This document shows, piece by piece, positions 3,712-35,539 of a DNA stretch of 35,539 nucleotides (within the stretch, counting starts at the first letter, position 1; the number at the start of each line of letters is the position of its first letter). The notes under the pieces are model-generated. The model was not told the DNA's origin and made no database searches. It worked only from the letters and a program-made list of their open reading frames with translations. Source of the DNA: a virus; IMG/VR virus record IMGVR_UViG_3300037475_000116, positions 1-35,539 of that record, one strand, 5' to 3'. The position numbers and the translations under genes are program-made.

Positions 3712-5190
3712 ATGTCTCGAAAGGTAAGCGTTCGACGCGTGCAGCAGCGCGCCACAGCAGAGAACCGTCGCGCGCTGGATCGTGCTACACGCGATTCGTT
3801 CCAGAACTTCATGCTGGGCCTCGGCATCGGGACGCAAAACCCGACGACGGCGAACTTCTACGGGTTCAACCCGAAGACGCGCGAGCGCACCGAGCTTGAA
3901 TGGGCCTATCGCGGCTCGTTCGTCGCCGGCGTCGCCATCGACGTGATCGCCGACGACATGACTCGCGAGGGCGTCGATCTCGTGGGTGATCTCCGTCCTG
4001 AGCAGATCGAGAAGATCGACGAACGGGCCACGACGCTCAAGATTTGGCCGAAGCTGAATCAGGGCATCAAGTGGGGTCGCCTCTACGGCGGCTCCATCGT
4101 GGTGTTGCTGATCGATGGCCAGGACTACTCGAAGCCTCTGCGGATCGACACCGTGGGGCCCGATCAGTTCAAAGGCCTGCTCGTGCTCGACAGGTGGAAC
4201 GTCTCGCCGACGCTGAATGATCTCGTGACCGACATCGGTCCCGATCTCGGCATGCCGAAGTACTACACCGTCGAGTACAGCGCACCGGCTCTGCGCGGCG
4301 TCAAGATTCATCATTCGCGCTGTCTGCGGCTGATCGGCGACGAACTGCCCTACCAGCAGGCCATCATCGAGCAGATGTGGGGCGCTTCGGTGCTCGAACG
4401 TCCGTTCGACCGCATGAGCGGATTCGATGCCGCGACAACGGGCGCATCGCAACAGGTGCACAAGTCGTACCTGCGCTACTTCAAGGTAGACAAGTACCGC
4501 GACATTCTCGGCGGCACTGGCGGGCCACAGGCTCTGAAAGGCCTGACGGAGATGATCGCGCACATGCGAATGTTCGCGTCGAATGAAGGCATCACCGTCA
4601 TCGACTCGAAGGACGATATGGTGACGGCGCAGGCCAGCACGTTCACTGGCATCGCCGACGTTCTGCTTCAACTCGGCCAGCAACTCTCGGGTAATTTTCA
4701 AATTCCACTGGTGCGGTTGTTCGGACAGTCGCCGGCCGGGTTGAGCGCCACCGGCGAGTCTGACCTGAAGACCTATTACGACGGCATCCGCAAGCGCCAG
4801 GTGCAGGACATGCTGGTCATGGTGACCGTGATCTATCGCCTGATCGCTCAGTCGCTGAAGTTCAAGGTTGGCGACGGGTTCGGTGTGACGTTCCGTTCAC
4901 TGTGGCAGATGACCGAAACCGAAAAGTCCGACATCGCGCAGAAGGACACCAATACCGTGATGGAAGTTCACGGCGCGGGTCTGATCAGCGATCAGGTTGC
5001 TCTTCGCGAGTTGCAATTCAGCGCGCGACGGACAGGACGATGGAAGGCGATCACAGACGAGATCGTGGAAGCTGCTTCAGATGAGGTCGCCCCACCGGGA
5101 GAGGATGTCGTCGAACCGCCTACATCGCCGGAAGATTCTCAGCGATCCGATTCAACTGTGGGTGACACCGCAACCCGGGAGGCCGCCTGA
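3712..5190 (+). CDS. Portal protein (DUF1073 family)
   Basis: A 492-residue protein that should form the dodecameric ring at the capsid vertex, through which DNA passes and to which the neck binds. Family recognition rests on ANFYGFNPKTRERTELEWAY near residue 45-65 followed by GVAIDVIADDMTREGVDL, and on the central IKWGRLYGGSIVVLLIDGQD, all typical of DUF1073 portals. The acidic C-terminal tail (PPGEDVVEPPTSPEDSQRSD) is low-complexity. The end of this tail is present a second time, diverged, at 5406-5479, and the stop codon is followed by inserted reverse-strand genes rather than directly by the head morphogenesis gene. The present C-terminus may therefore be a recombination product. Confidence 0.9.
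   Translation: MSRKVSVRRVQQRATAENRRALDRATRDSFQNFMLGLGIGTQNPTTANFYGFNPKTRERTELEWAYRGSFVAGVAIDVIADDMTREGVDLVGDLRPEQIEKIDERATTLKIWPKLNQGIKWGRLYGGSIVVLLIDGQDYSKPLRIDTVGPDQFKGLLVLDRWNVSPTLNDLVTDIGPDLGMPKYYTVEYSAPALRGVKIHHSRCLRLIGDELPYQQAIIEQMWGASVLERPFDRMSGFDAATTGASQQVHKSYLRYFKVDKYRDILGGTGGPQALKGLTEMIAHMRMFASNEGITVIDSKDDMVTAQASTFTGIADVLLQLGQQLSGNFQIPLVRLFGQSPAGLSATGESDLKTYYDGIRKRQVQDMLVMVTVIYRLIAQSLKFKVGDGFGVTFRSLWQMTETEKSDIAQKDTNTVMEVHGAGLISDQVALRELQFSARRTGRWKAITDEIVEAASDEVAPPGEDVVEPPTSPEDSQRSDSTVGDTATREAA
5089..5161 (+). repeat. Portal 3'-end repeat, copy 1 (inside the portal gene)
   Basis: This 73-bp segment of the portal gene resembles 5406-5479. From 5107 onward the copies align without gaps over 55 bp with 7 differences, at an offset of exactly 318 bp. 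Upstream of that the match continues weakly with a single 1-base indel. Confidence 0.8.
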
Positions 5191-6307: not shown

Positions 6308-7107
6308 TCAGAGACGCATCAACGCCGACTGCGCTTAGACAGTCGTTTCTGAATCTGCGCAAGGCTCGCCGACTCGCTCGCGAACGGTTCCTTGCCGGAC
6401 GCAAGGCAGAACGGTACTACCAGCGACAGCTCGCCCAGGTGGCGCGCCAGATCGGCAACATCGTTCGCGGCATGGCACCGGAAGGGGTCGTCACCGACAT
6501 CGGCGCATTGACGTCCACGCTTCATCGATACGCCGACTTTCTGACGCCGTGGGCCGAATCGGTCGTGAGCCGCATGGTTGCCGACGTGTCGCGACGCGAC
6601 GCAACGGCATGGGAACAACATGCACGCGAGATCGGCCAGACGCTTCGCCGGGAGATCGCAAGTGCCCAAACGGGCGCGGCAATGCGGCAGGCCTTGCGCG
6701 AAAGAGTCGAGGAGATCACATCACTGCCCCGGAAGGCAGCCGAGCGATTGTTCAAGCTCACGACCGAGGCCGTGACGACATCGACGAGGGCCAAGGAGAT
6801 TCAGCAGGAGGTCCTTGCGAGCGGTCGCGTGAGTCTTGCGTCGGCGAAGATGCTCGCCCGAACTGGTGTCTCGACAACGGCCACGGCGATCACCAAGGCG
6901 CGCGCCGAGCACATCGGTTCACCTGGCTACGTGTGGCGCACGTCGAAGGACGGAGCCGTTAGGCCGAGCCATCGCAAGATGGAGGGCAAAGTCGTCGAGT
7001 GGGGCAAACCGCCAACCCTCGATAACTACACGGCGCACTGCGGCGAATTCGCGAACTGCCGCTGCTTTCCCGAGCCGATCATTCCTGATCGATTCGGCAC
7101 CAACTAG
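6304..7107 (+). CDS. Mu gpF-like head morphogenesis protein
   Basis: A 267-residue minor head protein of the SPP1 gp7/Mu gpF type, present in a few copies per capsid and thought to act in head assembly or DNA ejection. The family signature is the C-terminal segment GYVWRTSKDGAVRPSHRKME at residues 208-226 followed by VVEWGKPP and the end motif NCRCFPEPII at 251-260. The N-terminal 180 residues are mostly helical. GGGGGA eight bases upstream supports the ATG at 6304. Normally this gene follows the portal directly; here about 1.1 kb intervenes. Confidence 0.9.
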   Translation: MIRDASTPTALRQSFLNLRKARRLARERFLAGRKAERYYQRQLAQVARQIGNIVRGMAPEGVVTDIGALTSTLHRYADFLTPWAESVVSRMVADVSRRDATAWEQHAREIGQTLRREIASAQTGAAMRQALRERVEEITSLPRKAAERLFKLTTEAVTTSTRAKEIQQEVLASGRVSLASAKMLARTGVSTTATAITKARAEHIGSPGYVWRTSKDGAVRPSHRKMEGKVVEWGKPPTLDNYTAHCGEFANCRCFPEPIIPDRFGTN

Positions 7108-9516: not shown

Positions 9517-10629
9517 ATGATTACCCGCGATAAAGTTCTCGACGGTGCGAATCTGCTTGCGCTGATGGCCGGACAAGACCATCCGGGCGGCAAGTTGCCC
9601 GTTGTTGCAAAAACCCGCGACGGAAAGACGGTCGACACCTCCGGCGCATTCCTGGTCGGCGAGTTGGAACGTCTCGACCAAACGCTGCACCAGCCGCTCA
9701 GCTCGATCTCTTGGGATCGTGACGTGCCGCTGCGCGATGACGTGACGCTGGGCGACGAAGTGACCTCGTTCACTCAGTCCACTTTCGGCACGCCGAGCGG
9801 CCCCGGCAACACAATTGCCATCGGCCAGAAGCGCAGCTTCATCGGCAAGAAGTCAACTGAGATCGCCGAGATGGACATCGACATCGGCAAGGTGACGCTG
9901 CCCCTGATTCCGTGGGGCGAGGGCGTCTCCTACTCACTCGCTGAACTCGCGTCTGCCGCGCAGACCGGCCGTCCGATCGACTCGCAGAAGATCGACGCGC
10001 TCAACCGCGAGCATCAGCTCCAGACCGACGCTCAGGCCTATCTCGGCTGGACGGGCAACAGCACCTTCGGTCTGATCAACTCGAACCAGGTCACACCGAC
10101 GAACTTCCCGAACGGCGCGGCGAATGGCTCCCAGTGGATGCCACACACCGGCTATGTGGGCAAGACGCCGAGCGAGATCCTGACCGATCTCGCGAACCTG
10201 GCCTTCACGCCGTGGGCTGCCTCGGGCTTTGCTCTGCGGCCCAACCGGATTCTGCTCGACCCGCAGAATTTCAACTTCATCAGCGTCACTCCTGCGACGG
10301 CCGCTGGCTCGAAGTCGATCCTACGGTACTTCCTCGAGTCCTACAACGCCGACACGGGTGCCGAGCCACTGCGCATCTTGCCGGTGAAGTGGCTGACCGG
10401 TGCGGGCGTGGGCGGAAACCTGCTTCAGCCCGGCACCACGAACCGCGCGGTTTCCTATCACCGTTACGAGGGTGACTGGAAGCAGGCTCCGGTTCGCTTC
10501 CCGATGACGATGTTGCAGCGCACCCCGGTCCAGTACGACGGCCTGTTCCACAAGCTGTACTACTGGGGCCGTCTGGGCGCCTGCGAATTCGTCTACCCGG
10601 AGACGGTCGCCTACATGGACGGCAACTAA
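9517..10629 (+). CDS. Major capsid protein (DUF2184 type)
   Basis: A 370-residue HK97-fold shell protein. Recognised from RDVPLRDDVTLGDEVTSFTQ near residues 68-90, IDIGKVTLPLIPWGEGVSYS, and the C-terminal VRFPMTMLQRTPVQYDGLFH followed by YWGRLGACEFVYPETVAYMDG, typical of DUF2184. Length fits the family. An AAAGGAG site lies upstream of ATG 9517 at a rather long spacing. It is followed 34 bp after the stop by a strong terminator-like hairpin, which would allow capsid transcripts to accumulate above downstream head-tail messages. Confidence 0.9.
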   Translation: MITRDKVLDGANLLALMAGQDHPGGKLPVVAKTRDGKTVDTSGAFLVGELERLDQTLHQPLSSISWDRDVPLRDDVTLGDEVTSFTQSTFGTPSGPGNTIAIGQKRSFIGKKSTEIAEMDIDIGKVTLPLIPWGEGVSYSLAELASAAQTGRPIDSQKIDALNREHQLQTDAQAYLGWTGNSTFGLINSNQVTPTNFPNGAANGSQWMPHTGYVGKTPSEILTDLANLAFTPWAASGFALRPNRILLDPQNFNFISVTPATAAGSKSILRYFLESYNADTGAEPLRILPVKWLTGAGVGGNLLQPGTTNRAVSYHRYEGDWKQAPVRFPMTMLQRTPVQYDGLFHKLYYWGRLGACEFVYPETVAYMDGN

Positions 10630-10663
10630 GGCCGATCCGCAACCCGGTAGTTGCACAAACCCG

Positions 10664-10696
10664 AAGGGGTCGCTCTCTGAGTGACCCCTTTCTCTC
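10664..10696 (+). terminator. Intrinsic terminator after the major capsid gene
   Basis: An 11-bp stem AAGGGGTCGCT / AGTGACCCCTT (one G-U pair) closes a 5-nt loop and is followed by TCTCTCTT. The pyrimidine tract is mixed, so read-through into the next gene, 14 bp further on, is likely. Confidence 0.6.
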
Positions 10697-10710
10697 TTGG
10701 AGGAGAGCAC

Positions 10711-11058
10711 ATGGAACAAGTCTTGCAGCATGTCGAGAAAGCACCCCTCATCGTCGCACCGCTCCACGCCGCCCCGAGGACGCCCGCAGAGGCGGCAGAG
10801 GGTCATGCAACCGTCACGATGGAATTCCCAAAAGCGGTCCATCTGACTGTCTCGACGAATCACTCGGTCTTCTACCCCGCTGGCATCCACGAGGTCCCCG
10901 ACCATCTGGCCGATCACTGGTATCTGAAGGCGCATCAGGTACGGCCTTACTACAAGCCAGTGCAGATCGCCGCACAGCCGCAAGCGCGCCCCGCGCAACA
11001 GCAGCAGGGCCAACGGCAGCAGCAGCAGAACAACGGCCGCAATCAACGCGCGAAGTAA
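10711..11058 (+). CDS. Small head-associated hypothetical protein
   Basis: A 115-residue protein with a very strong ribosome binding site (GGAGGAG) before ATG 10711. Its middle carries VFYPAGIHEVPDHLADHWYL at residues 53-72. That F.(A/P)G..EVPD.(L/V)A.HWYLKAH pattern recurs in small proteins encoded just after the major capsid gene in many tailed phages, where the function is unknown. The last 30 residues are a Gln/Arg/Ala-rich low-complexity tail (QARPAQQQQGQRQQQQ), likely disordered. It probably belongs to the head or head-tail module. No enzyme motif is visible. Confidence 0.65.
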   Translation: MEQVLQHVEKAPLIVAPLHAAPRTPAEAAEGHATVTMEFPKAVHLTVSTNHSVFYPAGIHEVPDHLADHWYLKAHQVRPYYKPVQIAAQPQARPAQQQQGQRQQQQNNGRNQRAK

Positions 11059-11090
11059 AGCGCCGCACATAGAGGCGGGGAGGAATGAAT

Positions 11091-11324
11091 ATGCCGCAGA
11101 AAGCGACTGAGATGTTCTGGGCATTCGTCTACGCGATCACGATGGCGACGATTCTCAGCGTCATCGGCTTCGTTCTCCCCCGCCCCGAAAACACCACGCA
11201 GGCGATCTTTCGCATTGCGGACGCTCTGGTGACCGGCGCTCTCGGTTTTTTTGCGGGTCGCGCTTCGGTGTTCGCGAGCCAGATCAAGGGTCAACCACCG
11301 CCACCGGGAGACGAGAGCAAATGA
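11091..11324 (+). CDS. Small membrane protein, possible holin-like
   Basis: A 77-residue protein with one clear membrane segment (WAFVYAITMATILSVIGFVL) and a weaker second one (ALVTGALGFFAGRASVF), then a proline/acidic tail (PPPPGDESK). The ATG at 11091 has GGAGG seven bases upstream; an ATG two codons earlier lies too close to that site. The stop TGA overlaps the next ATG (ATGA). Two-span topology and small size would suit a holin, but its position among head genes, far from the endolysin at 28.4 kb, argues for caution. I do not recognise the family. Confidence 0.6.
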   Translation: MPQKATEMFWAFVYAITMATILSVIGFVLPRPENTTQAIFRIADALVTGALGFFAGRASVFASQIKGQPPPPGDESK

Positions 11325-11482
11325 ACTGGTTTCTTGAGTGGCTTTATCGGCGCGGAAAGAAACCCCTCCCTCAATCCCCTGCCCCTCACCTCGTCATTCG
11401 ACTCGACCCGAACAGGCCGTCCGGAACGATGACGCCAACACCCAACCCTATCACCACAACGCCAAGGAGGCGCATCCCATGA
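11321..11482 (+). CDS. Small Pro/Arg-rich protein, overlapping both neighbours
   Basis: A 53-residue frame beginning MNWFLEWLYRRGKKPLPQSP. Its ATG overlaps the stop of the preceding membrane-protein gene, and its own stop TGA at 11480-11482 overlaps the ATG of the following gene, both as ATGA. That double coupling is the best evidence that it is translated, because no independent ribosome binding site is needed. The N-terminus is amphipathic with three Trp/Phe residues; the rest is basic and proline-rich and probably disordered. Family unknown. Confidence 0.5.
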   Translation: MNWFLEWLYRRGKKPLPQSPAPHLVIRLDPNRPSGTMTPTPNPITTTPRRRIP

Positions 11483-11901
11483 TCAGTTTCAATTTCAACA
11501 ATCTTCCGCACGCGCTCGCGACGTTCTTTAAGACCGCCGCGGCGGACGTGAAGAAAGCCATCCCCGTGATTGAGAACGCAATCGAGAAGGCGGAAGGCGA
11601 AAAGACCGTCATCGAGGGCGTCAGCGCCGCCGTCGCGAATGCGGTTCAGCCAGGTGCCGCCGTGCCGGTCGTCACCATCGAGGATGCGGGATTCGCGGTG
11701 CTCGGTTCCATTGACGCTGCGCTCAAGAGCGGCGACGCGGCCGCAGAGCAGAAGTTGCTCGACGCCGGAATCGACGTGAACGCGATCAACGCCGTCAAGG
11801 CGGTCGGCAGCCAGTCGCAGACGTTCTACAAAATCGTCACGTCCGTGCCCAAGGCCATAGTGCCTGTGGGAACGCTTGCATCGAGCATCGCCACCAAGTA
11901 A
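11479..11901 (+). CDS. Helical hypothetical protein
   Basis: A 140-residue protein starting MISFNFNNLPHALATFFKTA at ATG 11479, which has an ideal AAGGAGG site eight bases upstream. The sequence alternates helical, Ala/Val-rich segments with charged faces (AADVKKAIPVIENAIEKAEG); no catalytic motif, Cys pair or membrane span is visible. It is translationally coupled to the 53-residue frame before it. It could be a structural or accessory head protein; similar short Ala-rich helical proteins occur in acidobacterial and other soil phages, but I cannot name a family. Confidence 0.65.
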   Translation: MISFNFNNLPHALATFFKTAAADVKKAIPVIENAIEKAEGEKTVIEGVSAAVANAVQPGAAVPVVTIEDAGFAVLGSIDAALKSGDAAAEQKLLDAGIDVNAINAVKAVGSQSQTFYKIVTSVPKAIVPVGTLASSIATK

Positions 11902-11909
11902 ACGCGAAC

Positions 11910-11931
11910 GGGGCAGCATCACCGCTGCCCC
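11910..11931 (+). terminator. Perfect 8-bp hairpin between two late genes
   Basis: GGGGCAGC and GCTGCCCC pair perfectly around the loop ATCACC, eight bases after a stop codon and 27 bp before the next start. No T-tract follows, so termination is doubtful. The loop's CACC core resembles the early leader hairpins, but the Shine-Dalgarno flank does not. Confidence 0.4.
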
Positions 11932-11958
11932 GGCGCTCTCCGCTCGTGAGGTTTCCCC

Positions 11959-12765
11959 ATGCGTTGCTGGCTCACTCGTCAACTCGCCCAAGCACCATCA
12001 TCCACTCCGCCGATTCCGGCGCGACCGTTCATAGTCGAGGATGTGGCGCGGCATCTTTTTTGGTGCTTCTTCGTCTTCAGCGTTGTGACGATCTTCATGC
12101 TTGCGCCTTTGGTGTATTTCGGCTGCGCCCTGCTGAAGCAGTGGACCGTCGCCGGCGTCGAGGCGACGAAGACGTTCCAGGCGGTGAACCGCAACTGCAA
12201 CGGCGGCAAAGAGGCCTGCGGGACGCTCGCCGATGTGAACCAGACGCTCCACACGATTCGCGGCACCTTCGGCCAGATCGAGACGGCCGCGAAGCACGAG
12301 AACGCGCAACTGACAAAGCTCGACTCTCAGGAGATGACCCTGTTCGACGACGCCCACGGGGTCATGAGTGACGCGCGGGAAACGATCAAAGGGGCGACAG
12401 GTTTGACTCAGGTCGCGTCGGGGGCGATACAGACGACCCAAGATACGATCAGGGGGGCCCAACCCGCTCTAGCGTCTCTGACGACGACCCTAGACGCGTT
12501 CGGGGCACTCGCCCGATCTGCGCAGAGACGAACAGACGACCCGCGCGTTGACGCATTGCTCGATCATCTGCAATCGACTTCGGCCCATATCGACGGGGCG
12601 ACGGGCGACGTGCAGACCGTCTTTGACCGCGTGACGAACCCGCCCAAGTGCAAGGGCCGCGCCTGCGTATTCGTCAAGGCCTTGAACGTCATCTCCGCCG
12701 CGCATGACGTACCGGAATTCGGCTACTGGACCGATCAGCTCATCCAGAGTCTTCGCCACCACTAA
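11959..12765 (+). CDS. Membrane-anchored coiled-coil protein
   Basis: A 268-residue protein with one strong membrane helix at residues 33-59 (LFWCFFVFSVVTIFMLAPLV) and then a long, mostly helical domain rich in Thr/Ala/Gln/Asp with heptad-like spacing (residues 80-215). This is followed by a Cys-containing loop (KCKGRACVF) and a short helical end. Topology and composition resemble methyl-accepting or MlaD-type coiled-coil anchors, but no defining motif of either is present. GTGAGG lies seven bases before the ATG at 11959. It is the last gene before a probable terminator. A role in host-envelope interaction is inferred only from the architecture. Confidence 0.6.
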   Translation: MRCWLTRQLAQAPSSTPPIPARPFIVEDVARHLFWCFFVFSVVTIFMLAPLVYFGCALLKQWTVAGVEATKTFQAVNRNCNGGKEACGTLADVNQTLHTIRGTFGQIETAAKHENAQLTKLDSQEMTLFDDAHGVMSDARETIKGATGLTQVASGAIQTTQDTIRGAQPALASLTTTLDAFGALARSAQRRTDDPRVDALLDHLQSTSAHIDGATGDVQTVFDRVTNPPKCKGRACVFVKALNVISAAHDVPEFGYWTDQLIQSLRHH

Positions 12766-12836
12766 CGTTGGCAGCGCGGTCGCGCTGGCAAAATGCGGGC
12801 CGCCCGTCCTGCTCAGACACTGGCCAACTTCCTCCA

Positions 12837-12878
12837 ACCGGGCTTCGGGGTTTGCCTTCCGGGGTCCGGTCTTTTTTT
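12837..12878 (+). terminator. Probable intrinsic terminator ending the head-accessory operon
   Basis: ACCGG at 12837-12841 pairs with CCGGT at 12866-12870 around a GC-rich interior that can fold further, followed directly by a run of seven T at 12872-12878. The rest of the gene-free stretch 12766-13045 holds another GC-rich inverted repeat just after the stop codon at 12765 (about 12773-12800) and no gene I can support. Confidence 0.55.
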
Positions 12879-13045
12879 CGAAAGAAGTTCGCCAATGAGA
12901 CTGCAAATTGTGAAAACAACCATAAGCTGGCCGGATGAACCGAAGCGCACCCCAGTTATCCGGATGCGAGCGTTGAAGAAGCATCGCACCCGAATGGTTG
13001 GATATCGCATTTAATCCAGAAAACTGGTCGTTAGCTCTTGCGGGG

Positions 13046-13414
13046 TCAAGGGACAAGAGCCTCAATTGTGTCGACATGGATCAGCTTGGTATCCGCGTCG
13101 AGACGGCCGGTAACCTTAACAGTCTTGCCCTCAAAGCTCTGTGCGCGCGAGGAGTCATCCATCTTGTAAATCACCCCGGTTGAATCGCGCAGAACATATT
13201 GTTCGCCGTTTTTTACCACAGTACCGGTGAAGGTTGTGGACTTTGCCGCAGCCGGGTCCGGCACCACCGCGGCAGGTGGAGCTTGAGGTTCCTGGATGGC
13301 CGGTATTCGAGTTGCAGCGTTTGTGGTGACGCTCGATGCCAACGCGGGAACAGCCGTGAGCAAAAGCGCGCAAGTGGAGACACTGAGGAGAATCTGGAGC
13401 TTAGTTGACTTCAT
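13046..13414 (-). CDS. Exported DUF5818-type protein, host-like
   Basis: A 122-residue exported protein read against the late operon. Residues 1-28 are a classical signal peptide (MKSTKLQILLSVSTCALLLT, cleavage expected after PALA). A Pro/Ala-rich linker leads to a domain at 61-120 with TFTGTVVKNGEQYVL, MDDSSRAQSFEGKTVKVTG and LIHVDTIEAL. This pattern (F.G.(I/V)VK...YVL.D...Y.LDD...A..FEGK.VKVTG.LD....IHV..I) is what I know as DUF5818, a small beta-barrel secreted family abundant in Acidobacteria. A GTG three codons upstream is an alternative start. Its neighbours are phage head genes on the other strand, so it is a cargo (moron) gene probably captured from the host. Function unknown. Confidence 0.75.
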   Translation of the reverse strand: MKSTKLQILLSVSTCALLLTAVPALASSVTTNAATRIPAIQEPQAPPAAVVPDPAAAKSTTFTGTVVKNGEQYVLRDSTGVIYKMDDSSRAQSFEGKTVKVTGRLDADTKLIHVDTIEALVP

Positions 13415-18155: not shown

Positions 18156-18349
18156 CGTTTACGCCCGTCGCGATGGCTTCGGGCGAGGACTGGGTGATGC
18201 GCCCGGTTCTTCGCGGGCTGTGCCGCTATGAATCTCTAATCGATGGCACTGTCGATCTGTTCGACGTTGCCCGCATGAATGAAGCTCTCGACGTTCACGA
18301 CGAGAACGAGCGGCGCATCAATGAGGCGCTTTCGAAAAAGGAGCAGTGA
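18116..18349 (+). CDS. Tail assembly chaperone frameshift extension (GT-like, DUF6889-like)
   Basis: The -1 frame after the slippery site adds 77 residues: SYRPTRIPASGGVTFTPVAM as linker, then a compact domain with DWVMRPVLRGLCRYESLIDG and LFDVARMNEALDVHDENER. That (M/L)RPVL.G.CRYE(S/D)L.DG..DL.D(V/I)A.MNEALD pattern is a conserved short domain (I recall it as DUF6889) usually found just before the tape measure gene. It could also be translated alone from ATG 18173 (58 residues), but no good ribosome binding site is visible there. Its stop overlaps the tape measure start (TGATG). Fusion by frameshift is the more economical reading. Confidence 0.75.
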   Translation, partial: SYRPTRIPASGGVTFTPVAMASGEDWVMRPVLRGLCRYESLIDGTVDLFDVARMNEALDVHDENERRINEALSKKEQ

Positions 18350-20028
18350 TGGCCGGAAACTCCAGCGTTCTCAAGGAATTTCTCGTCAAGATCGGCTTCA
18401 AGATCGACGAGACGAAGTACCGCGATTTTCAGGAATCGATGCGAGCGACGGCGAAGAATGCCGTCGAGATGTCGAAGACGGCTCTGGCTGCCACGACGGT
18501 CATGGGCGTGGGCCTGAAGGCTGTTGCGCAGCAGATGGAGAATCTGTACTTCGCTACTCGCCGCACCGGGGCAAGTGCGACCGAACTGAAGGAGCTTGGC
18601 TTCGCCGCTGAACAGGTCGGAGTATCGGCAGAACAGGCGCGCGGGGCCGTCGAGGGTCTTGCCGCTGCACGTCGCACGAATCCCGGCCTGAATGGGATCC
18701 TCGGCGGGCTGGGGATCGATCCAAGGCAGACAGACAACGCGAAGGTACTTGTCCAACTGCTCGCGAAGCTGCACGCAATGCCCTACTATCAGGGCGCGCA
18801 GGTCGCCGGGTTGTTCGGCATCAACGAACAGACGTTCGCGATGCTCGAACAGGGTTTGCCGGAGATGCAGAAGTACCTGGCGCTCCGCGAAAAGATGTAC
18901 CGCGCGGCGGGCGTCAGTCCGGATGACGTGTCGAAGCGTTCTCACGAATTCAACACGAATCTCCGCATCCTGGAAGCGTCGCTTGAAACGCTGACGGAGA
19001 TCATCGCCTACCGGCTGATGCCAGCAGGCGAGAAGGTCATCGAATGGCTGACGAGCGTCGTCGGGTGGCTTATACGCGCCGATACCGCCACAGGTGGATG
19101 GTCGTCGCGCATTCTCGGCATCGCGAGCGCTCTCGCCGGTGGCAGTCTCATCAAGGGCGGTCTCGGATTCATCGGCAAATTGCTCGGACGTGGCGGCGCA
19201 ACCGCGGCCGCTGAGGGAGCTGGAGGCGAGACTGCTGCCGCTGCAGGCGGGGGTCTGCTCACCATCACCGGGGGCCTGGTCGCGGCTGCCGTTGGACTCG
19301 CCCTGATCGTGTTCAATCGCGGGATCGCCGAGAAGGTCACGGGCTGGCTCGGTCTGGACCCGAAAGGCCATCAGATCACCGATGCCGTCAAGTCGATGGC
19401 ATCCAAGGTCGGCAATCTCGCCCATAGCGCCGCCCAGCACGTCGCGGCCTACGTCCCGAAAGTGACGGGGGATCTTGCCCGCATGGTTGCAGGGTTCGAG
19501 GGGTATCGCGATCACACGTATCGCGACGTAGCGGGCAACTCGACGGCGTTCTTTGGTCACAAGGTGAGGCCGGGTGAAAACGTCGCGGGCATGGACCCTG
19601 TTGCGATTCTGATGAGTGACCTGACTGCAGCGCTCGCCGCGGTGCACAAGCTGGTCAAGGTGCATCTCGGGCGCAATCAGGAGAACGCGCTCGCCGACTT
19701 CGTATTCAACGTCGGGGCGCAGAAGTTCGCGAACTCGACGATGCTGCGAAAGCTGAACTCGGGCGACTTCGCCGGGGCCACCGATCAGTTCCAGCACTGG
19801 AACCACGCGCTGGTCAACGGTCACATGACGACCCTGAAGGCGCTGACAGATCGCCGCACCGCTGAGGCAAACCTGTTCCGCGCACCGGACAGGCCGATCA
19901 CGATTCAGCAGAAGGCCGACTATCACATCAGCTCGACGGACCCGCAGGGTGCTGCGGATGAAGTGAAGCGTCGGCAGGCCGGACTCAACAGCGACATGGT
20001 GCGCAATCTCGCGGGAGCAGTCCAATGA
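18349..20028 (+). CDS. Tape measure protein fused to a T4-type lysozyme (GH24) domain
   Basis: A 559-residue protein starting at ATG 18349 (AAGGAG upstream). Residues 1-235 are helical tape measure sequence (FKIDETKYRDFQESMRATAK); 255-330 contain Gly/Ala-rich and membrane-type helices (ITGGLVAAAVGLALIVF); 372-512 form a GH24 lysozyme. There E384 (GFEGYRDHTY), D393 and T399 (RDVAGNST) keep the E-x8-D-x5-T spacing of the T4 lysozyme catalytic triad, and NALADFVFNVGAQKFANSTM plus the LKALTDRRTAEANLF end are typical. The lysozyme would open peptidoglycan during DNA entry. A tape measure of this size implies a rather short tail. The stop overlaps the next start (ATGA). Confidence 0.88.
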   Translation: MAGNSSVLKEFLVKIGFKIDETKYRDFQESMRATAKNAVEMSKTALAATTVMGVGLKAVAQQMENLYFATRRTGASATELKELGFAAEQVGVSAEQARGAVEGLAAARRTNPGLNGILGGLGIDPRQTDNAKVLVQLLAKLHAMPYYQGAQVAGLFGINEQTFAMLEQGLPEMQKYLALREKMYRAAGVSPDDVSKRSHEFNTNLRILEASLETLTEIIAYRLMPAGEKVIEWLTSVVGWLIRADTATGGWSSRILGIASALAGGSLIKGGLGFIGKLLGRGGATAAAEGAGGETAAAAGGGLLTITGGLVAAAVGLALIVFNRGIAEKVTGWLGLDPKGHQITDAVKSMASKVGNLAHSAAQHVAAYVPKVTGDLARMVAGFEGYRDHTYRDVAGNSTAFFGHKVRPGENVAGMDPVAILMSDLTAALAAVHKLVKVHLGRNQENALADFVFNVGAQKFANSTMLRKLNSGDFAGATDQFQHWNHALVNGHMTTLKALTDRRTAEANLFRAPDRPITIQQKADYHISSTDPQGAADEVKRRQAGLNSDMVRNLAGAVQ

Positions 20029-29982: not shown

Positions 29983-30008
29983 CCCGCGACACCAACGCGG
30001 GACTGGAG
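29983..30008 (+). promoter_or_regulatory. Leader stem-loop copy 1 (before the DUF932 gene)
   Basis: Stem CCCGCG / CGCGGG, 6 bp, loop ACACCAA, followed directly by ACTGGAG; 16 nt from stem end to ATG 30018. This is a member of a repeated leader family whose loops have a CACC core. Confidence 0.7.
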
Positions 30009-30017
30009 ATGAGAATC

Positions 30018-30893
30018 ATGAACCTTCGCTACTCACGTTTCGGTGGACACAGCAACCTCAGCAATGGCAATACCGCCCTCACGATGGATCAGCTTCGCTC
30101 CGCTGTTCCCTCTGCCTTCGCTCTCGACAAGCACGACTCGCGCAGCCAGCGTTACACCTACATCCCCACGGTCAACGTAATCGAGGGTCTGATGGGCGAG
30201 GGATTCCAGCCGTTCAAGGCGATCCAAGGCAAGAGCCGCGTCGAAGGCAAGCAGGAGTTCACGAAGCACCTGATTCGCTTCCGCCACGCCGATCACTCGC
30301 TCGCCACCGTGGGCGACTCCGCTCCCGAGGTCATTCTGATCAACTCGCACGACGGCACGTCCTCGTACAAGCTGATCGCCGGAATCTTCCGCATGGTCTG
30401 CTCGAATGGCCTGATCGTCGCCGACTCGACCGTTGGCTCCCTGAGCGTGCCGCACAAAGGCGACATCGTTTCGCAAGTGATCGAGGGTTCCTTCGAGATC
30501 ATCGGCAACTCCAACCGCGCTCTCGAAACGACCCGCGAGTGGCAGAACCTGCAACTGACTGCTGGCGAGCAGAACGCGTTCGCCGAAGCCGCTCACGAAC
30601 TGCGCTTCTCCGACGCAGAGGGCGAAGTAAAGACGCCGATCACGCCCGCGCAACTACTCAACCCGCGCCGCAACGCCGACAACGGCAACGACCTCTGGCG
30701 CACCTTCAACCGCGTTCAAGAGAACGTGATCAGAGGCGGAATCAGCGCATGGGGCCGCGACGCTGAGAACCGCGTGCGCCGCGTCACGACCCGCGAAGTC
30801 CGCGGCATCGATCAGGACGTGAAGCTCAACCGCGCGATGTGGATGCTCACCGAGAAAATGGCCGAACTGAAAGGAGTCGGGGCCGCCGCGTAA
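30018..30893 (+). CDS. DUF932 (phage/plasmid-like) protein
   Basis: A 291-residue protein of the DUF932 type, common in phages and plasmids, with unknown function often suggested to involve nucleic acid. Features: YIPTVNVIEGLMGEGFQPFK (residues 51-70), KHLIRFRHADHSLATVGDSA, then VILINSHDGTSSYKLIAGIF and RMVCSNGLIVADSTVGSLSV, which together match the family core. The C-terminal third contains NDLWRTFNRVQENVIRGGIS and a helical end. ATG 30018 lies nine bases after GGAG; an ATG nine bases earlier abuts that site and is rejected. It is the first gene of the early-type block and is preceded by leader stem-loop copy 1. Confidence 0.85.
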   Translation: MNLRYSRFGGHSNLSNGNTALTMDQLRSAVPSAFALDKHDSRSQRYTYIPTVNVIEGLMGEGFQPFKAIQGKSRVEGKQEFTKHLIRFRHADHSLATVGDSAPEVILINSHDGTSSYKLIAGIFRMVCSNGLIVADSTVGSLSVPHKGDIVSQVIEGSFEIIGNSNRALETTREWQNLQLTAGEQNAFAEAAHELRFSDAEGEVKTPITPAQLLNPRRNADNGNDLWRTFNRVQENVIRGGISAWGRDAENRVRRVTTREVRGIDQDVKLNRAMWMLTEKMAELKGVGAAA

Positions 30894-30962
30894 CGAGCCA
30901 CGAGGGGCGCGACTCGACAACGCGCACCGCTTCCCCGCCCTCGACACAATCGACCAACCGCA

Positions 30963-30985
30963 CCCGACGCCATTCGGGACAGGAG
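30963..30985 (+). promoter_or_regulatory. Leader stem-loop copy 2
   Basis: Stem CCCGA / TCGGG, 5 bp, loop CGCCAT, followed by ACAGGAG; 16 nt from stem end to ATG 30995. It is the shortest stem of the family. Confidence 0.55.
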
Positions 30986-30994
30986 AACACCGCC

Positions 30995-31150
30995 ATGACT
31001 CCGACCCCTTCGATTAAGCGCCAACTGACCATCGCCGCCAAGTTCACCGAGCCGCAGATGAAGTTCAACATGATCCGCCAGGTTTTTGCCCGCCACATGC
31101 CGAGTGAGCAGGCAAAGCACGCCACTCGTGCACATCTGGCGACGCGCTAG
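30995..31150 (+). CDS. Small basic hypothetical protein
   Basis: A 51-residue basic, mainly helical protein (MTPTPSIKRQLTIAAKFTEP, then MKFNMIRQVFARHMPSEQAK). The ATG has AGGAG nine bases upstream and is preceded by leader stem-loop copy 2, which supports genuine translation. No domain is recognised. It could be a small nucleic-acid-binding or regulator-type protein, judged only from charge and size. The following 206 bp before the next gene contain another leader-like hairpin and no gene I can support. Confidence 0.6.
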   Translation: MTPTPSIKRQLTIAAKFTEPQMKFNMIRQVFARHMPSEQAKHATRAHLATR

Positions 31151-31182
31151 ACATCTCCAGAATCCCGCAACCCTCAACCCGA

Positions 31183-31212
31183 GCCGCGCCGGTCAATGCG
31201 CGGCAGAGGAGG
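31183..31212 (+). promoter_or_regulatory. Leader-like stem-loop, divergent copy without a clear gene
   Basis: Stem GCCGCGC / GCGCGGC, 7 bp, loop CGGTCAAT, followed by AGAGGAGG. The upstream flank GCAACCCTCAACCC matches the flanks of copies 4 and 5. No start codon lies at the usual 13-16 nt distance, so the gene it served may have decayed. Confidence 0.45.
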
Positions 31213-31323
31213 CCGAAACAATTCGATGGTGCCAAGGGTAAGCCTTCACGCGGCGGCACTGAGCAGTCACCGATTACCCCGTCCAATCCGAACATCGCGC
31301 CGGCGACCCCCGGCAACAGCATC

Positions 31324-31350
31324 GCTCGTCACACCGGACGGGCTCTGGAG
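31324..31350 (+). promoter_or_regulatory. Leader stem-loop copy 3
   Basis: Stem GCTCGTC / GACGGGC, 7 bp with one G-U pair, loop ACACCG, followed by TCTGGAG; 13 nt from stem end to ATG 31357. Confidence 0.65.
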
Positions 31351-31356
31351 ATCATC

Positions 31357-31902
31357 ATGACGAACAACACCCTGAAGTCGACCATCGAAGCCATCATCGC
31401 CAGCAGCGCCCTCGTCGTCGTCACACTGGACGGCACGTTCAACTCGATCACCGGCGCGCCCGTACTGTCACCCCGCACCCGCCCCGATCAGCGGAACAAG
31501 TTTCTGAAAGACTTCTGCGAGCGCGTCAACCCGACCGAGGCGAAGGAAGCCGAATACACGCTGAAGAATCAGATCGAGGAAGCAGTGAAGCTCGGGGTCA
31601 AGGCATTCGGCGAGGGTGACTTCAGCGCTGCAATCAAGTACGCGAACCAAGCAACCTCTCTGACCGAGCAGCTTGATCAGCCCCGCGTCTACTACACCAT
31701 CAAGCCGAACGTCGATCTCCGCACCGTCGCCGAGAAGCGCGCCGCGAAGAAGGCAGAGAACGCTGAGAAGAAAGCCGCAAAGCAGGCAGAGAAGGAAGCC
31801 GCTGCCGCCGCCAAGATGGCCGATAAGGTCGAGCATGCGCAGCCGACGACGCAGATCAGCGAAGCCCCGAAGAGCGGCAAGAGCACGAAGAAAGCCGCGT
31901 AG
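31357..31902 (+). CDS. Hypothetical early protein with Ala/Lys-rich tail
   Basis: A 181-residue protein. The N-terminal part (IEAIIASSALVVVTLDGTFN) is a hydrophobic beta/helix segment; the centre (KNQIEEAVKLGVKAFGEGDF, then SAAIKYANQATSLTEQLDQP) resembles one helical hairpin of a TPR-like unit. Residues 122-165 are a long Ala/Lys/Glu coiled region (KRAAKKAENAEKKAAKQAEK) like a histone-H1-type tail, suggesting DNA or RNA binding or a flexible linker. The frame stays open upstream of the ATG for about 55 codons, but leader stem-loop copy 3 and GGAG position the start at 31357. Family unknown. Confidence 0.65.
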   Translation: MTNNTLKSTIEAIIASSALVVVTLDGTFNSITGAPVLSPRTRPDQRNKFLKDFCERVNPTEAKEAEYTLKNQIEEAVKLGVKAFGEGDFSAAIKYANQATSLTEQLDQPRVYYTIKPNVDLRTVAEKRAAKKAENAEKKAAKQAEKEAAAAAKMADKVEHAQPTTQISEAPKSGKSTKKAA

Positions 31903-31929
31903 TCCACTCTCAACCGCAACCACTGAACA

Positions 31930-31965
31930 GCGGCGCGTCTCACCAGCGCGCCGCACTGGAGAACA
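31930..31965 (+). promoter_or_regulatory. Leader stem-loop copy 4
   Basis: Stem GCGGCGCG / CGCGCCGC, 8 bp perfect, loop TCTCACCAG, followed by ACTGGAGAACA; 13 nt from stem end to ATG 31968. Confidence 0.75.
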
Positions 31966-31967
31966 CA

Positions 31968-32681
31968 ATGACGAGCCTCACCGAGAAACTGCAAAAACTG
32001 ATCGCTCACGAAAAGAGCGCCCGCGCCATCGGCAATCTGCAAGAGGCCGAGGCCTTCGCCGCCAAGATCGCCGAACTCCTGTTCCGGCACAACCTCAGCA
32101 TGAGCGATGTCGAGATCAAGCAGCAGGAACGCGACGAGCCAATTGCCCGCGAACGCGTATCGATGGGCGGGAAACGTGCCGCGTGGATGGAGATTCTGGC
32201 ATCGGCGGTATCGACGGCATGCTTCTGCAAATGGCTGATTGTGCCCGGTGGCGACACTCAGGTGTTCGTGGGCCGCACGTCAGACCGCGAGGCAGCCGCG
32301 TCGATGTATCGGCACCTCGTCGGGTGCGCCACCTCGATCTGCAACATGGAGAAGCGTTCGCTGCGCGACCGCAACCCGCACACCGATCTCCGTCAGCGCC
32401 AGCAGTACGCCTCAGAGTGGGGCAAGGCGTTCCTGCTCGGCTTCGCGACGACGGTGGCCACGCGCCTCAGGGCGACGCGTCAGCAGCTCACCAACGAATC
32501 GGGCGGCACCGCTCTCGTGCTGCGCAAGGACGCCGCGCTGCAACAGTGGTGGGCGCAGCAGAACTTCAAGGGCCACGCCCGTTCGATCACGGTCAAGACG
32601 AAAAGCCAGGACGGATTCGCAACAGGCATTCGTGCCGGCCACGCCGTCTCGCTAAAGGCCCGAACCGCACTCAACGCGTAA
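31968..32681 (+). CDS. DUF2786/DUF7168 protein
   Basis: A 237-residue protein. Residues 1-45 (LQKLIAHEKSARAIGNLQEA, then ELLFRHNLSMSDVE) match DUF2786, a helical N-terminal domain common in phage and bacterial proteins of unknown function. Residues 60-190 carry WMEILASAVSTACFCKWLIV, FVGRTSDREAAASMYRHLVG and YASEWGKAFLLGFATTVATR, which fit the companion DUF7168 domain. The C-terminal part is basic. It is often encoded near DUF932 and single-strand-DNA-related genes in phage early regions. Preceded by leader stem-loop copy 4. Confidence 0.8.
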   Translation: MTSLTEKLQKLIAHEKSARAIGNLQEAEAFAAKIAELLFRHNLSMSDVEIKQQERDEPIARERVSMGGKRAAWMEILASAVSTACFCKWLIVPGGDTQVFVGRTSDREAAASMYRHLVGCATSICNMEKRSLRDRNPHTDLRQRQQYASEWGKAFLLGFATTVATRLRATRQQLTNESGGTALVLRKDAALQQWWAQQNFKGHARSITVKTKSQDGFATGIRAGHAVSLKARTALNA

Positions 32682-32704
32682 ACCCTCAACCACAACCCTC
32701 AACA

Positions 32705-32738
32705 GCGGGCCGCTCACCACGGCCCGCACTGGAGAACA
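32705..32738 (+). promoter_or_regulatory. Leader stem-loop copy 5
   Basis: Stem GCGGGCCG / CGGCCCGC, 8 bp perfect, loop CTCACCA, followed by ACTGGAGAACA; 13 nt from stem end to ATG 32741. Compared with copy 4, three stem positions differ and each is compensated on the other arm. Confidence 0.75.
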
Positions 32739-32740
32739 GC

Positions 32741-32839
32741 ATGTTACACGTTCAATTCTTCGTCGGAGCCCCGATCGGCATGAGCATCATGGCGGTTCAC
32801 GTCAGTCAGCGCCTTCTGAAAGCGGGAACGACGCCATGA
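32741..32839 (+). CDS. 32-residue hydrophobic microprotein
   Basis: The peptide reads MLHVQFFVGAPIGMSIMAVH followed by VSQRLLKAGTTP. Support comes from leader stem-loop copy 5 and its GGAG site upstream and from an ATGA overlap with the next small gene. The first 20 residues are hydrophobic enough for weak membrane association, and the end is basic. No known family. Confidence 0.45.
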   Translation: MLHVQFFVGAPIGMSIMAVHVSQRLLKAGTTP

Positions 32840-32940
32840 CCTCGACCGATCTCGATGCCCTCAAGTGGGTACTCATTCGAGCGGCGATCGCCGCCGCCCT
32901 GATCGTCTTCGGCATCGCCCTCGGAAAATGGGGCTGCTAG
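32836..32940 (+). CDS. 34-residue single-span membrane peptide
   Basis: After a polar start (MTSTDLDALKWVLIR) comes a membrane helix (AAIAAALIVFGIALG), then KWGC. It is translationally coupled by ATGA to the preceding microprotein. Size and topology would fit a small regulatory membrane peptide or a minimal holin, but there is no motif to decide. Confidence 0.45.
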   Translation: MTSTDLDALKWVLIRAAIAAALIVFGIALGKWGC

Positions 32941-33084
32941 CCGGGGACCAAATCATGATTATGTGCGGTACAATCGACTTCGACCGTGGGTCGCTCTCCA
33001 GTGGCCCATGGTTCGTTCCCCGGGGTGGTGCTCGGGGCATGGCTCGGATACGTCAAGTCCGGGCCGGTGTCACGAAGGAGGACC

Positions 33085-33288
33085 ATGACGGTCTGGACCG
33101 ACAAGCTGGACATGAGCACCATCCCCAGTGACGTGTTGTACGCCGAGGTCGGCCGTCGCCGCGTCGCTGGGCGCGACCCAGAGAACGCCGGGCGGCCACC
33201 GATCATGCGCGCCTGTAGGTGGTGCAAGGAGAAATTCGGCGCTCGCGAGATGAGACAGCACACCCCGAACTGCCCCAAACGGAAGTAG
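33085..33288 (+). CDS. Small zinc-finger protein
   Basis: A 67-residue protein with AAGGAGG just before ATG 33085. It begins MTVWTDKLDMSTIPSDVLYA. The C-terminal half carries RACRWCKEKFGAREMRQHTP and then NCPKRK: C44, C47, H59 and C63 form a C-x2-C-x11-H-x3-C metal site resembling short C2HC fingers used for nucleic-acid or protein binding. The basic end supports nucleic-acid contact. It probably acts as a small early regulator; the target is unknown. The 144 bp before it hold overlapping short frames that cannot be ranked. Confidence 0.65.
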   Translation: MTVWTDKLDMSTIPSDVLYAEVGRRRVAGRDPENAGRPPIMRACRWCKEKFGAREMRQHTPNCPKRK

Positions 33289-33292
33289 AAGC

Positions 33293-33502
33293 ATGACTCA
33301 GAACCTGTATTACGAGCCGAAGGGAACCGTTCACTTCAACATCAAATACAAGGGCGGCGCTTTGCTCAATCGCGCGGCAGCGCGCGATCTCAAAGCAGCC
33401 CTCCCTTCAAACATCGAGTGGGTCTGGATCGTCGAAGCCAATCGATTCGCTACGACCGATGAGATTCGCCAGCTTTGCAGCGGCACCTGGGCAAGCAAAT
33501 GA
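33293..33502 (+). CDS. Small hypothetical protein
   Basis: A 69-residue protein beginning MTQNLYYEPKGTVHFNIKYK, with ARDLKAALPSNIEWVWIVEA and a short helical end. The mixture of beta N-terminus and helical middle suggests a compact fold; no motif is recognised. It starts five bases after the zinc-finger gene, and its stop overlaps the next start (ATGA), so the three small genes form one coupled unit. Function unknown. Confidence 0.6.
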   Translation: MTQNLYYEPKGTVHFNIKYKGGALLNRAAARDLKAALPSNIEWVWIVEANRFATTDEIRQLCSGTWASK

Positions 33503-33675
33503 GGCGCGCAAGGCCGGACCCGACGAAGTTCGATCTCACCTATCCGTGCCCGGTCTGCGGGTACAAGATCCCGCCGCGCGAGATTCTTCACGTCGATGGA
33601 CAGAACATTCGTTGCCCGCAGTGCGGCAAGAACGTCCCCTACCTCCCAGCTGAGAACTGCCCAAAGACTTCTTGA
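33499..33675 (+). CDS. Small zinc-ribbon protein
   Basis: A 58-residue protein coupled by ATGA to the preceding gene. It contains YPCPVCGYKIPPREILHVDG and NIRCPQCGKNVPYLPAE: C17/C20 and C39/C42 make a four-cysteine zinc ribbon with the usual CPxCG knuckles. Such ribbons in phage early regions commonly bind nucleic acid or RNA polymerase. It is the last plus-strand gene before the converging DGQHR gene, 47 bp away. Confidence 0.7.
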   Translation: MRRARPDPTKFDLTYPCPVCGYKIPPREILHVDGQNIRCPQCGKNVPYLPAENCPKTS

Positions 33676-33722: not shown

Positions 33723-35539
33723 CTAGTCGTTTGTACTTGCTCCAGCACTATTCTCAACGGCTACCTCTGTCTCCTCTTCTTCTCCCTCACTAACCGGAGT
33801 CACTACATTGGCGAGTTCGGTGGTTAGTCTCTCTTGCTCTTCATTTGGTAATTGAGCTCCATGCAAGGCTTCCAGAGCAACGAAGTACTCTTTCATCGCC
33901 TGCTTGGAGACTTTTTCTTTGATCCTCGGCTTCACCGCAGATGGGTCGATTCCTTGGTCCCGGCAGTACCGATCCAGATCACGCCTGTAGAGGGCATTCA
34001 ATACGTCAACCCTACAGGCCGCGACGTACTCGTCGACGATCTGCTGGAGTTTCGGGTCCGCGCTCTTCCAGAGCTCGAGCAAAATGTATCTGAATTTTGT
34101 CCATTCGTCCGGTTTGAGCTCCCTCTGGATGACAATCCGTCGGAGAGTGTAGTTGCTCTCGACAATCTTCATCGATTCAGAACCAAAGCTGCCCGATACG
34201 GATCCTGAGAAAGCCAACAAAAGTCGCTTCGTTTCAGATTCAGTCTTCGGCTGAAAGAAGCCGTTTAGCCCTGCCAGATATTCCGTAAATAGCTCTGTCT
34301 CCTTGTCACTACCCTCCAACCTGGCGTCGCCGTTATATTTTTCCATCGTCGTGAAAAAAGAGAGAAATAAAGCTGTCTGGAAAGCTTGTGTTGTGAAGAC
34401 AGTTCGGTATAAAGTGTTTATCGCCGTAACGATGACCGGCACGACTTTGGATTGTGGTATTGCAGACAACAGCTTCCTTGTTCGATTCTCCCCAAATTGT
34501 CTTTGATATTGTTCCAAGCGATCCTTTGTGGTCTTAAATTCCTTTAGCAGCGACGCCAGCTCCGGCGGATATTCTCCGGACGGGTACCGTTCCGCCAGGT
34601 CACTCTCAAGTTGCTCGAGGTAAGTTTCGAAAACGCGGAGGTGTCCCTGGCCCTCAAACAACATCGAATGACATTGCATGTCATGAACGTTCATCCTTAA
34701 CTGGACTTCTAGATCGAATGCCGCCTTACACATGCAATCGTAAGGAGCGAAGTTCTGGAAGCCCTGAAGCAGCAGTCCACGATATCGCTTCTCAAAGGAT
34801 CCCAACAATATTTGCAGCGCGTCCGAAGAGAACGCACGCCGGGTGGTATTTGCGGCAACTTCTTCGCCGAGGAGATTACGTCCATCAAGCCGGCGGTAGA
34901 GCTCGTCAAGGCTCTTGATATTCCCAAACCTTTGGGAAGGCAAATAGAGGTTTGTGGGCGCAGACCCAAGGAACAAGGCACGCTCAAGCAGGAAGTGGAG
35001 ATGCATGACGCCCGAAAGCGCTACCGTTGAGGTGAGAACAGTCTTGTCCTCTTCAGCGTCAAGTTCGAAGTTCCACAACCTGAGCCCTGTGGTCGAGTTC
35101 GGGTCCTGCTGCTTGACCGAGTCGAGTACGTGCCGTTCGAAGTGCGCGATCAGGTCATAGTCATCCAGGAGGATATTGCGAGATGTCGTCACAGGCCTGG
35201 CATTTTTATTTAGAGCAAGGAAGACGGAACGGCTAGCTTTGGTTACCGTCGTGGACGAATGATTGGATTCAGTCAGCGTTGGAAACGTGCAAACTACAAT
35301 CGGGAGGGAAATCTCCTTTAGATTTAAACCTTCCAAGCTCTTCTTGGACCAACGCTTATAGTAGTTTTCGTAGCGTTGAGTGTCACCCTCCCAGCCTTTA
35401 ATATTCCTATAGAGTGCCAGCAACGCCATTGCGCGATGTTGCCCATCCACGATGACCAAACGGCACTTGTTTGTGTTGACTCTCAACTTTGCATGGTCAA
35501 ATTCCTGCAGCTTTCCGCTAATCTCAAACTGCTCAAATT
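33723..35539 (-). CDS. DGQHR-domain protein (DndB-like), N-terminus beyond the window
   Basis: The visible part is 604 residues; the frame remains open to the right edge, so the true start lies outside. Near the visible N-terminus CRLVIVDGQHRAMALLALYR contains the DGQHR motif, followed by EISLPIVVCTFPTLTE and FLALNKNARPVTTSRNILLD, the order known for DGQHR proteins such as DndB, which regulates DNA phosphorothioation genes, and for related genes in defence islands. The remaining 400 residues are mainly helical with no further motif I recognise, and end in an acidic tail (EGEEEETEVAVEN). Base composition is clearly more AT-rich than the phage genes, suggesting separate origin. It converges on the early block. 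A role in defence, modification sensing or counter-defence is inference. Confidence 0.7.
   Translation of the reverse strand, partial: FEQFEISGKLQEFDHAKLRVNTNKCRLVIVDGQHRAMALLALYRNIKGWEGDTQRYENYYKRWSKKSLEGLNLKEISLPIVVCTFPTLTESNHSSTTVTKASRSVFLALNKNARPVTTSRNILLDDYDLIAHFERHVLDSVKQQDPNSTTGLRLWNFELDAEEDKTVLTSTVALSGVMHLHFLLERALFLGSAPTNLYLPSQRFGNIKSLDELYRRLDGRNLLGEEVAANTTRRAFSSDALQILLGSFEKRYRGLLLQGFQNFAPYDCMCKAAFDLEVQLRMNVHDMQCHSMLFEGQGHLRVFETYLEQLESDLAERYPSGEYPPELASLLKEFKTTKDRLEQYQRQFGENRTRKLLSAIPQSKVVPVIVTAINTLYRTVFTTQAFQTALFLSFFTTMEKYNGDARLEGSDKETELFTEYLAGLNGFFQPKTESETKRLLLAFSGSVSGSFGSESMKIVESNYTLRRIVIQRELKPDEWTKFRYILLELWKSADPKLQQIVDEYVAACRVDVLNALYRRDLDRYCRDQGIDPSAVKPRIKEKVSKQAMKEYFVALEALHGAQLPNEEQERLTTELANVVTPVSEGEEEETEVAVENSAGASTND

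Follow-up and report, generated by a model that had tools for sequence, protein, structure and literature searches.

In the early region of a tailed phage, IMG/VR record IMGVR_UViG_3300037475_000116 (linear, 35.5 kb; the whole stretch of 35,539 nucleotides is referred to here as the window), we identified a candidate hepatitis delta virus (HDV)-like ribozyme embedded in a family of RNA hairpins that precede successive genes. We propose, with a probability of about 0.6, that the early operon transcript of this phage is organized by RNA structures at its gene boundaries, together with a ribozyme cut and the release of a Shine-Dalgarno (SD) sequence. In this model, five leader hairpins, positioned 3 nt before the SD sequences of five genes, would keep their structure while the sequence of their stems drifts, and the ribozyme (31228-31279) would cut between positions 31227 and 31228, i.e., between the part of the operon spanning 30018-31150 and the part spanning 31357-32839. 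The upstream product would have a further hairpin (hairpin 6) close to its 3' terminus; the downstream product would begin with the ribozyme fold, carrying a 5'-OH, and continue with the gene starting at 31357. In uncut RNA, an anti-SD segment (31152-31161) would hold the SD of gene 31357, and cleavage would release it.

A sequence-only reading of the window had described six hairpins in front of early start codons, one of them without a gene. Each was found exactly at the claimed site, with the loop as quoted (Table 1), and both the fixed placement and a shared CTCAAC flank upstream of three copies were confirmed. The stems are 5 to 9 bp long and differ in sequence in each copy, while GGAG follows 3 nt after the stem in all six; in the five hairpins with genes, the ATG lies 16, 16, 13, 13 and 13 nt from the stem, behind an SD of the form (A/T)C(T/A)GGAGA. 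CACC is present in four of the six loops, with loop sequence and length otherwise variable (CGCCAT, AGACCG, CGGTCAAT). When a unit was defined strictly (stem length plus number of G-C pairs of at least 10, GGAG within 4 nt, and then a start codon), the segment 29901-32760 contained four, whereas 1000 dinucleotide-shuffled versions averaged 0.073 and never had more than one.

That the stems covary had been concluded from paralogues within the window, and it is also true between orthologues. The only close relative found, contig IMGVR_UViG_3300049985_000021 (L002/L246; hereafter L246), encodes a DUF932 protein that is 92% identical. Its stems differ from those of the window by seven substitutions, making up three full compensations and one wobble with no broken pair, an outcome matched by 18 of 300,000 random placements; in the 31930 stem alone, two pairs have changed from G-C/C-G to C-G/G-C. 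Since only two members of the lineage are in the data, this comparison does not amount to a deep covariation test. L246 also lacks positions 30894-31148, comprising hairpin 2 and the 51-aa gene, and the missing stretch is bounded almost precisely by two stop codons, as if hairpin, ribosome-binding site (RBS) and gene behaved as one cassette. Separately, an 11-bp hairpin (32984-33011) lies in the conserved noncoding leader of the zinc-finger gene at 33085; its loop, TCTCCA, is complementary to the SD sequence TGGAGA of other leaders, and three one-sided changes in L246 leave all of its pairs intact.

A search of Rfam at the gathering threshold returned zero matches, in keeping with the suggestion of an undescribed, structure-conserved leader RNA repeated before early starts. 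Further copies had been expected before the early genes of related phages; this was borne out in one close relative and failed elsewhere in the searches, which were based on DUF932, DUF7168, the 181-aa protein, the terminase, a tail protein and two DNA patterns run against IMG/VR. Outside the window, the family was found only on the contig of L246, both in the protein-based scans and with the IMG/VR patterns (for one of them, among the matches listed). A covariance model (R2) run over 29 whole records recovered it only in the window lineage, and relatives with about 45% identity in DUF932 or 68 to 77% in the terminase had none in the parts available. Among GTDB genomes, the DUF932 search gave zero matches and the terminase search gave distant ones alone (30 to 33%). 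Outside this lineage, 7.3 Mb of DNA from other phages contained no comparable array; the few loci there with two or three dispersed matches had loops and flanks unlike those of the window. One match, CGCGCG-ACTT-CGCGCG-ACTGGAGA in contig L248, was dismissed as chance, since it is an isolated single copy close to the end of its contig and 10 kb away from the terminase.

The element downstream of hairpin 6 is, by architecture, a minimal HDV-like ribozyme with every element present, and its sequence leads us to expect that it cleaves. P1 (GGUGCC/GGCACU, 6 bp) begins at the cleavage site with G1 and is closed by a G.U pair in both the window and L246; J1/2 is AA (2 nt). P2 (GGGUAA/UUACCC) crosses P1, forming a pseudoknot, and stacks on P3, which consists of 3 bp (GCC-UUCACGC-GGC) and whose loop, L3 (UUCACGC), forms P1.1 (UC/GA). 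J4/2 is CCGA, with catalytic C31270 at its first position, and conforms to the CYRA seen in almost all of the family; P4 is absent, the linker between P1' and P2' being 13 nt without a stem. Across the 52 nt, L246 is identical except for two bases, both in a stretch that varies across the ribozyme family, and both genomes retain the family-conserved positions, among them the catalytic C. The Rfam model for the HDV-like CPEB3 ribozyme (RF00622) matched at 15.9 bits, below its gathering score of 35, and was below threshold in both genomes. An open reading frame (ORF) at 31226, 3' of hairpin 6, was rejected, as its frame is not conserved. Hairpin 6, taken earlier for an orphan of the same kind as the others, is indeed without a gene, but it is more than an orphan, the ribozyme lying 23 nt 3' of it.

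Several searches place this element in a wider family. In 7.4 Mb, a strict descriptor of the P1-P2-P3-P1.1-J4/2 features was matched at 31228-31279 alone, whereas a relaxed one returned 65 distinct cores with the catalytic position spread over all four bases; the strict version, it should be said, was composed with the window sequence in view. Scanning IMG/VR for the core P3-L3-P3'-N5-UGA yielded 60 loci. P1 was present in 19 of 61 bare-core matches, all 19 of which also had P2, most with a 13-nt linker before P2'. In an alignment of 19 rows, P1 and P2 are paired in every cell with many pair types (95 of 95 pair cells for P2); because this set was partly picked for pairing, the cleaner evidence is the 19/61 core count and a profile derived from 11 ribozymes found in other phages, with the window lineage left out; its sole match in the window was 31228-31279, with an E value of 1.7e-9. 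A covariance model (R3) scored full-length members at 35 bits or more and chance core matches at no more than 18.6 bits. Over 46 IMG/VR records not picked for ribozymes and four phage records (three named jumbo phages and one short record), it gave no full-length match and one partial match of 20.2 bits. INPHARED gave zero matches to the ribozyme DNA.

Across this family, a hairpin tends to abut the cleavage site (mean score, 12.9, versus 6.3 for shuffled sequences, with a maximum of 10.3 in 300), and in most loci an SD and an ATG follow within about 25 nt 3' of the ribozyme. One case is a 64-kb contig, IMGVR_UViG_3300036791_001402 (L455/G040; hereafter L455), from a phage apparently unrelated to that of the window, in which seven ribozymes occur within 3.9 kb on the minus strand (9545-13409). 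Seven consecutive units between genes share the order stop-hairpin-AU/ribozyme-SD-ATG (the slash marking the cut). In each, the open frame stops 16 to 29 nt before the cut, with a hairpin in or near the gap (one is weak by hairpin score, and that of the seventh unit, at 9597, was identified by eye); 12 to 17 nt 3' of the ribozyme comes an ATG, preceded by GGAAAAGAG or a comparable run of purines. Of the six downstream proteins scanned, one belongs to the GP88 family and five have no known family. Two other contigs carry cores near tRNA-like or tRNA sequences: in L410 (about 6830-6899), the same core, whose long linker could accommodate a P4 stem, lies directly 3' of a tRNA-like sequence for which ARAGORN makes no call, and L465 has candidates at 4845 and 5803, with nine tRNA genes further downstream.

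The two halves of the proposed SD lock lie on opposite sides of the cut, which favors processing and makes SD release a plausible consequence. Fold prediction, which excludes the ribozyme pseudoknot, gave the anti-SD/SD pairing a probability of 1.00 in the window and 0.96 to 0.98 in L246. The predicted openness of the SD of gene 31357 was 0.00 in uncut RNA and 0.44 in cut RNA (0.02 and 0.59 in L246), and when the upstream part was dinucleotide shuffled 200 times, 2 of the shuffles were as closed in each genome; at the other four genes, fold prediction gave no such lock beyond chance. If so, cleavage would raise translation of gene 31357.

Shuffling the leader hairpins leaves predicted SD access unchanged. 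This result led us to reject insulation or occlusion of the SD by the hairpins. Also rejected were a loop-SD pseudoknot, for which we reason that 2 to 3 nt are too short for a stem of 6 to 9 bp; intrinsic terminators, as no U-run follows the stems in the sequence; and RNase III sites, the stems being too short by what is generally known of that enzyme. With SD access unaffected, a role in protecting ends or marking boundaries is favored: most likely, the hairpins are cis elements at the RBS that protect the message and mark the ends of its segments, and we infer that they would stabilize RNA ends. Of the roles suggested for them earlier (translation, stability and processing), RNA processing is now the best-supported theme because of the ribozyme 3' of hairpin 6, which that reading had missed.

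The main rival is a loop-binding factor, whereby the hairpins would be operators for one protein or RNA that reads the CACC-type loop and coregulates the five genes, with the ribozyme a separate matter. The CACC core, kept in four of six loops while the stems vary, the constant 3-nt spacing between stem and SD and the small zinc-binding proteins encoded nearby would all suit such a factor, and the operator hairpin of T4 gene 43 offers a precedent (PMC3014915). However, the loops vary in both sequence and length, their descent as paralogues would by itself keep some likeness among them, and the binding protein is still a hypothetical component; hairpin 1, being unchanged between the genomes, is uninformative here. 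We consider this explanation unlikely; a loosely conserved loop core, a single lineage and relatives lacking the family in the parts available do not favor the earlier suggestion that one protein or RNA could control all copies.

Several observations weigh against a transcript organized by boundary structures and ribozyme cleavage. Besides the indifference of SD access to hairpin shuffling and the descriptor's origin, the cut falls 23 nt after hairpin 6, compared with 1 to 4 nt in L455; the small hairpin beside the cut is weak; the ATG of gene 31357 lies 77 nt past the end of the ribozyme, with another hairpin between; and only two genomes are known to carry the hairpin family. Moreover, the predicted lock comes from folds that cannot include the ribozyme pseudoknot, and, because transcription reaches the ribozyme ahead of the SD, cleavage may precede any lock. 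It is also conceivable, though improbable, that the 31228 element is ribozyme shaped but inactive or decayed and the anti-SD pairing coincidental: P4 is missing, P1 and J1/2 are short (6 bp and 2 nt), and about 1% of shuffles lock the SD equally. Yet minimal HDV-like ribozymes without P4 cleave in vitro (PMC10879173). Decay is hard to square with changes confined to the variable stretch while the conserved positions, catalytic C included, are intact in both genomes. Slightly less probable still is that the stems are inverted repeats kept by DNA-level template switching between their arms and not by selection on RNA; quasi-palindrome correction can yield paired substitutions in short inverted repeats and would be their source, but orientation and the 3-nt SD spacing are fixed, the repeats are restricted to the leaders of one operon, and arm copying would not leave the C-G to U-G wobble.

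The early region, so labeled from its position and gene content, follows the structural and lysis genes (Table 1), and its small proteins are probably zinc binding. The window ends in two minus-strand genes, an AIPR-family gene (PF10592) at 321-1589 on the left and a weakly DndB-like gene at 33723-35486 on the right, which are possible defense cargo; at its right end, L246 has different genes instead, methylase-like and helicase-like by eye. A tail tape-measure-like protein (18346-20028) has a C-terminal endolysin-like domain, according to PHROG matches.

Table 1. Features of the window (genes listed by start where no end is given; L246, nearest relative)
Feature	Position	Strand	Remarks
Terminase	2113
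Portal	3712
Major head protein	9517		followed by tail genes
Endolysin	28446
Early region	30018-33672		3' of endolysin; DUF932, 51-aa, 181-aa, DUF7168 and small proteins
Leader hairpin 1	29983-30001	+	CCCGCG-ACACCAA-CGCGGG; 5' of gene 30018; identical in L246
DUF932 early gene	30018-30893	+	PF06067, E = 1.1e-48
Leader hairpin 2	30963-30978	+	CCCGA-CGCCAT-TCGGG; 5' of gene 30995; hairpin and gene absent from L246
51-aa early gene	30995-31150	+	ORF with SD; no family match
Anti-SD	31152-31161	+	CATCTCCAGA; predicted to pair with SD of gene 31357 in uncleaved RNA
Hairpin 6	31183-31204	+	GCCGCGC-CGGTCAAT-GCGCGGC; without gene; compensatory C-G to U-A in L246
Small hairpin	31214-31225	+	CGAA-ACAA-TTCG; ends 2 nt 5' of ribozyme cleavage site; weak, 3 bp in L246
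Minimal HDV-like ribozyme candidate	31228-31279	+	cleavage expected at 31227/31228; catalytic C31270
Leader hairpin 4	31324-31343	+	GCTCGTC-ACACCG-GACGGGC; 5' of gene 31357
SD region of gene 31357	31344-31352	+	TCTGGAGAT; complementary to anti-SD 31153-31161
181-aa early gene	31357-31902	+	no family match; 75% identity to L246 copy
Leader hairpin 5	31930-31954	+	GCGGCGCGT-CTCACCA-GCGCGCCGC; 5' of gene 31968; two compensated pairs in L246
DUF7168 early gene	31968-32681	+	PF23771, E = 6.6e-13
Leader hairpin	32705-32727	+	GCGGGCCG-CTCACCA-CGGCCCGC; 5' of gene 32741; C-G to U-G in L246; z-score -3.3
32-aa early ORF	32741-32839	+	81% identity in L246, where the start is TTG

Phage minimal HDV-like ribozymes without P4 are known, and those tested were active in vitro (Kienbeck et al. 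2024, PMC10879173). As described in that study, they and the theta ribozymes share with the window element a nested double pseudoknot (P1, P2, P3 and P1.1), a catalytic C in J4/2 and the lack of P4, as well as a noncoding location in tailed phages in the sense of the neighboring genes. The tRNA-associated theta type cleaves no more than 5 nt from the 3' end of a tRNA, whereas the 35.5-kb window contains no tRNA gene and its ribozyme lies between early protein genes, 3' of a hairpin and 5' of an RBS; the main text of that study leaves the role of HDV-like ribozymes away from tRNAs unassigned and mentions neither hairpins nor operon arrays. The CPEB3 ribozyme (RF00622) resembles the window element in the arrangement of P1 and P3 and in the letters UUCACG of L3, but it is mammalian and intronic and has P4. 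As for the hairpins, the start-associated sequences (SAS) and extended SAS (ESAS) of cluster K mycobacteriophages likewise form a repeated element with an SD at many nonstructural gene starts, with an inverted repeat just upstream in about half (PMC3203893). ESAS arms, however, are conserved in sequence, and the authors argue against RNA hairpins, while the arms in the window vary with pairing kept and lack the conserved 17-bp inverted repeats and 13-bp GGGATAGGAGCCC of ESAS. The operators of T4 genes 43 and 32 (PMC3014915) also place a hairpin or pseudoknot 5' of the RBS of a phage gene, but they serve single autoregulated genes with known binding proteins and form no operon-wide repeat family. 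What is new here is the placement of a ribozyme at operon boundaries with a hairpin and an RBS, and the seven-fold array; the kind of ribozyme is already known.

More tentatively, and at somewhat less than even odds, we speculate that some phages split polycistronic transcripts into single-gene messages by means of serial cassettes in which a minimal HDV-like ribozyme stands between a 3' hairpin and an RBS. The window would represent a one-ribozyme version, in which cleavage frees the next SD and the other boundaries consist of hairpin and RBS alone. In summary, these findings suggest a role for tRNA-distant phage ribozymes, namely, cutting operon transcripts without an enzyme into pieces whose ends are protected, to which the case of the window would add the release of a sequestered SD. 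In addition, most genes in the early operon of a phage can be marked by leader RNAs conserved in structure, a level of organization not visible from gene annotation alone.

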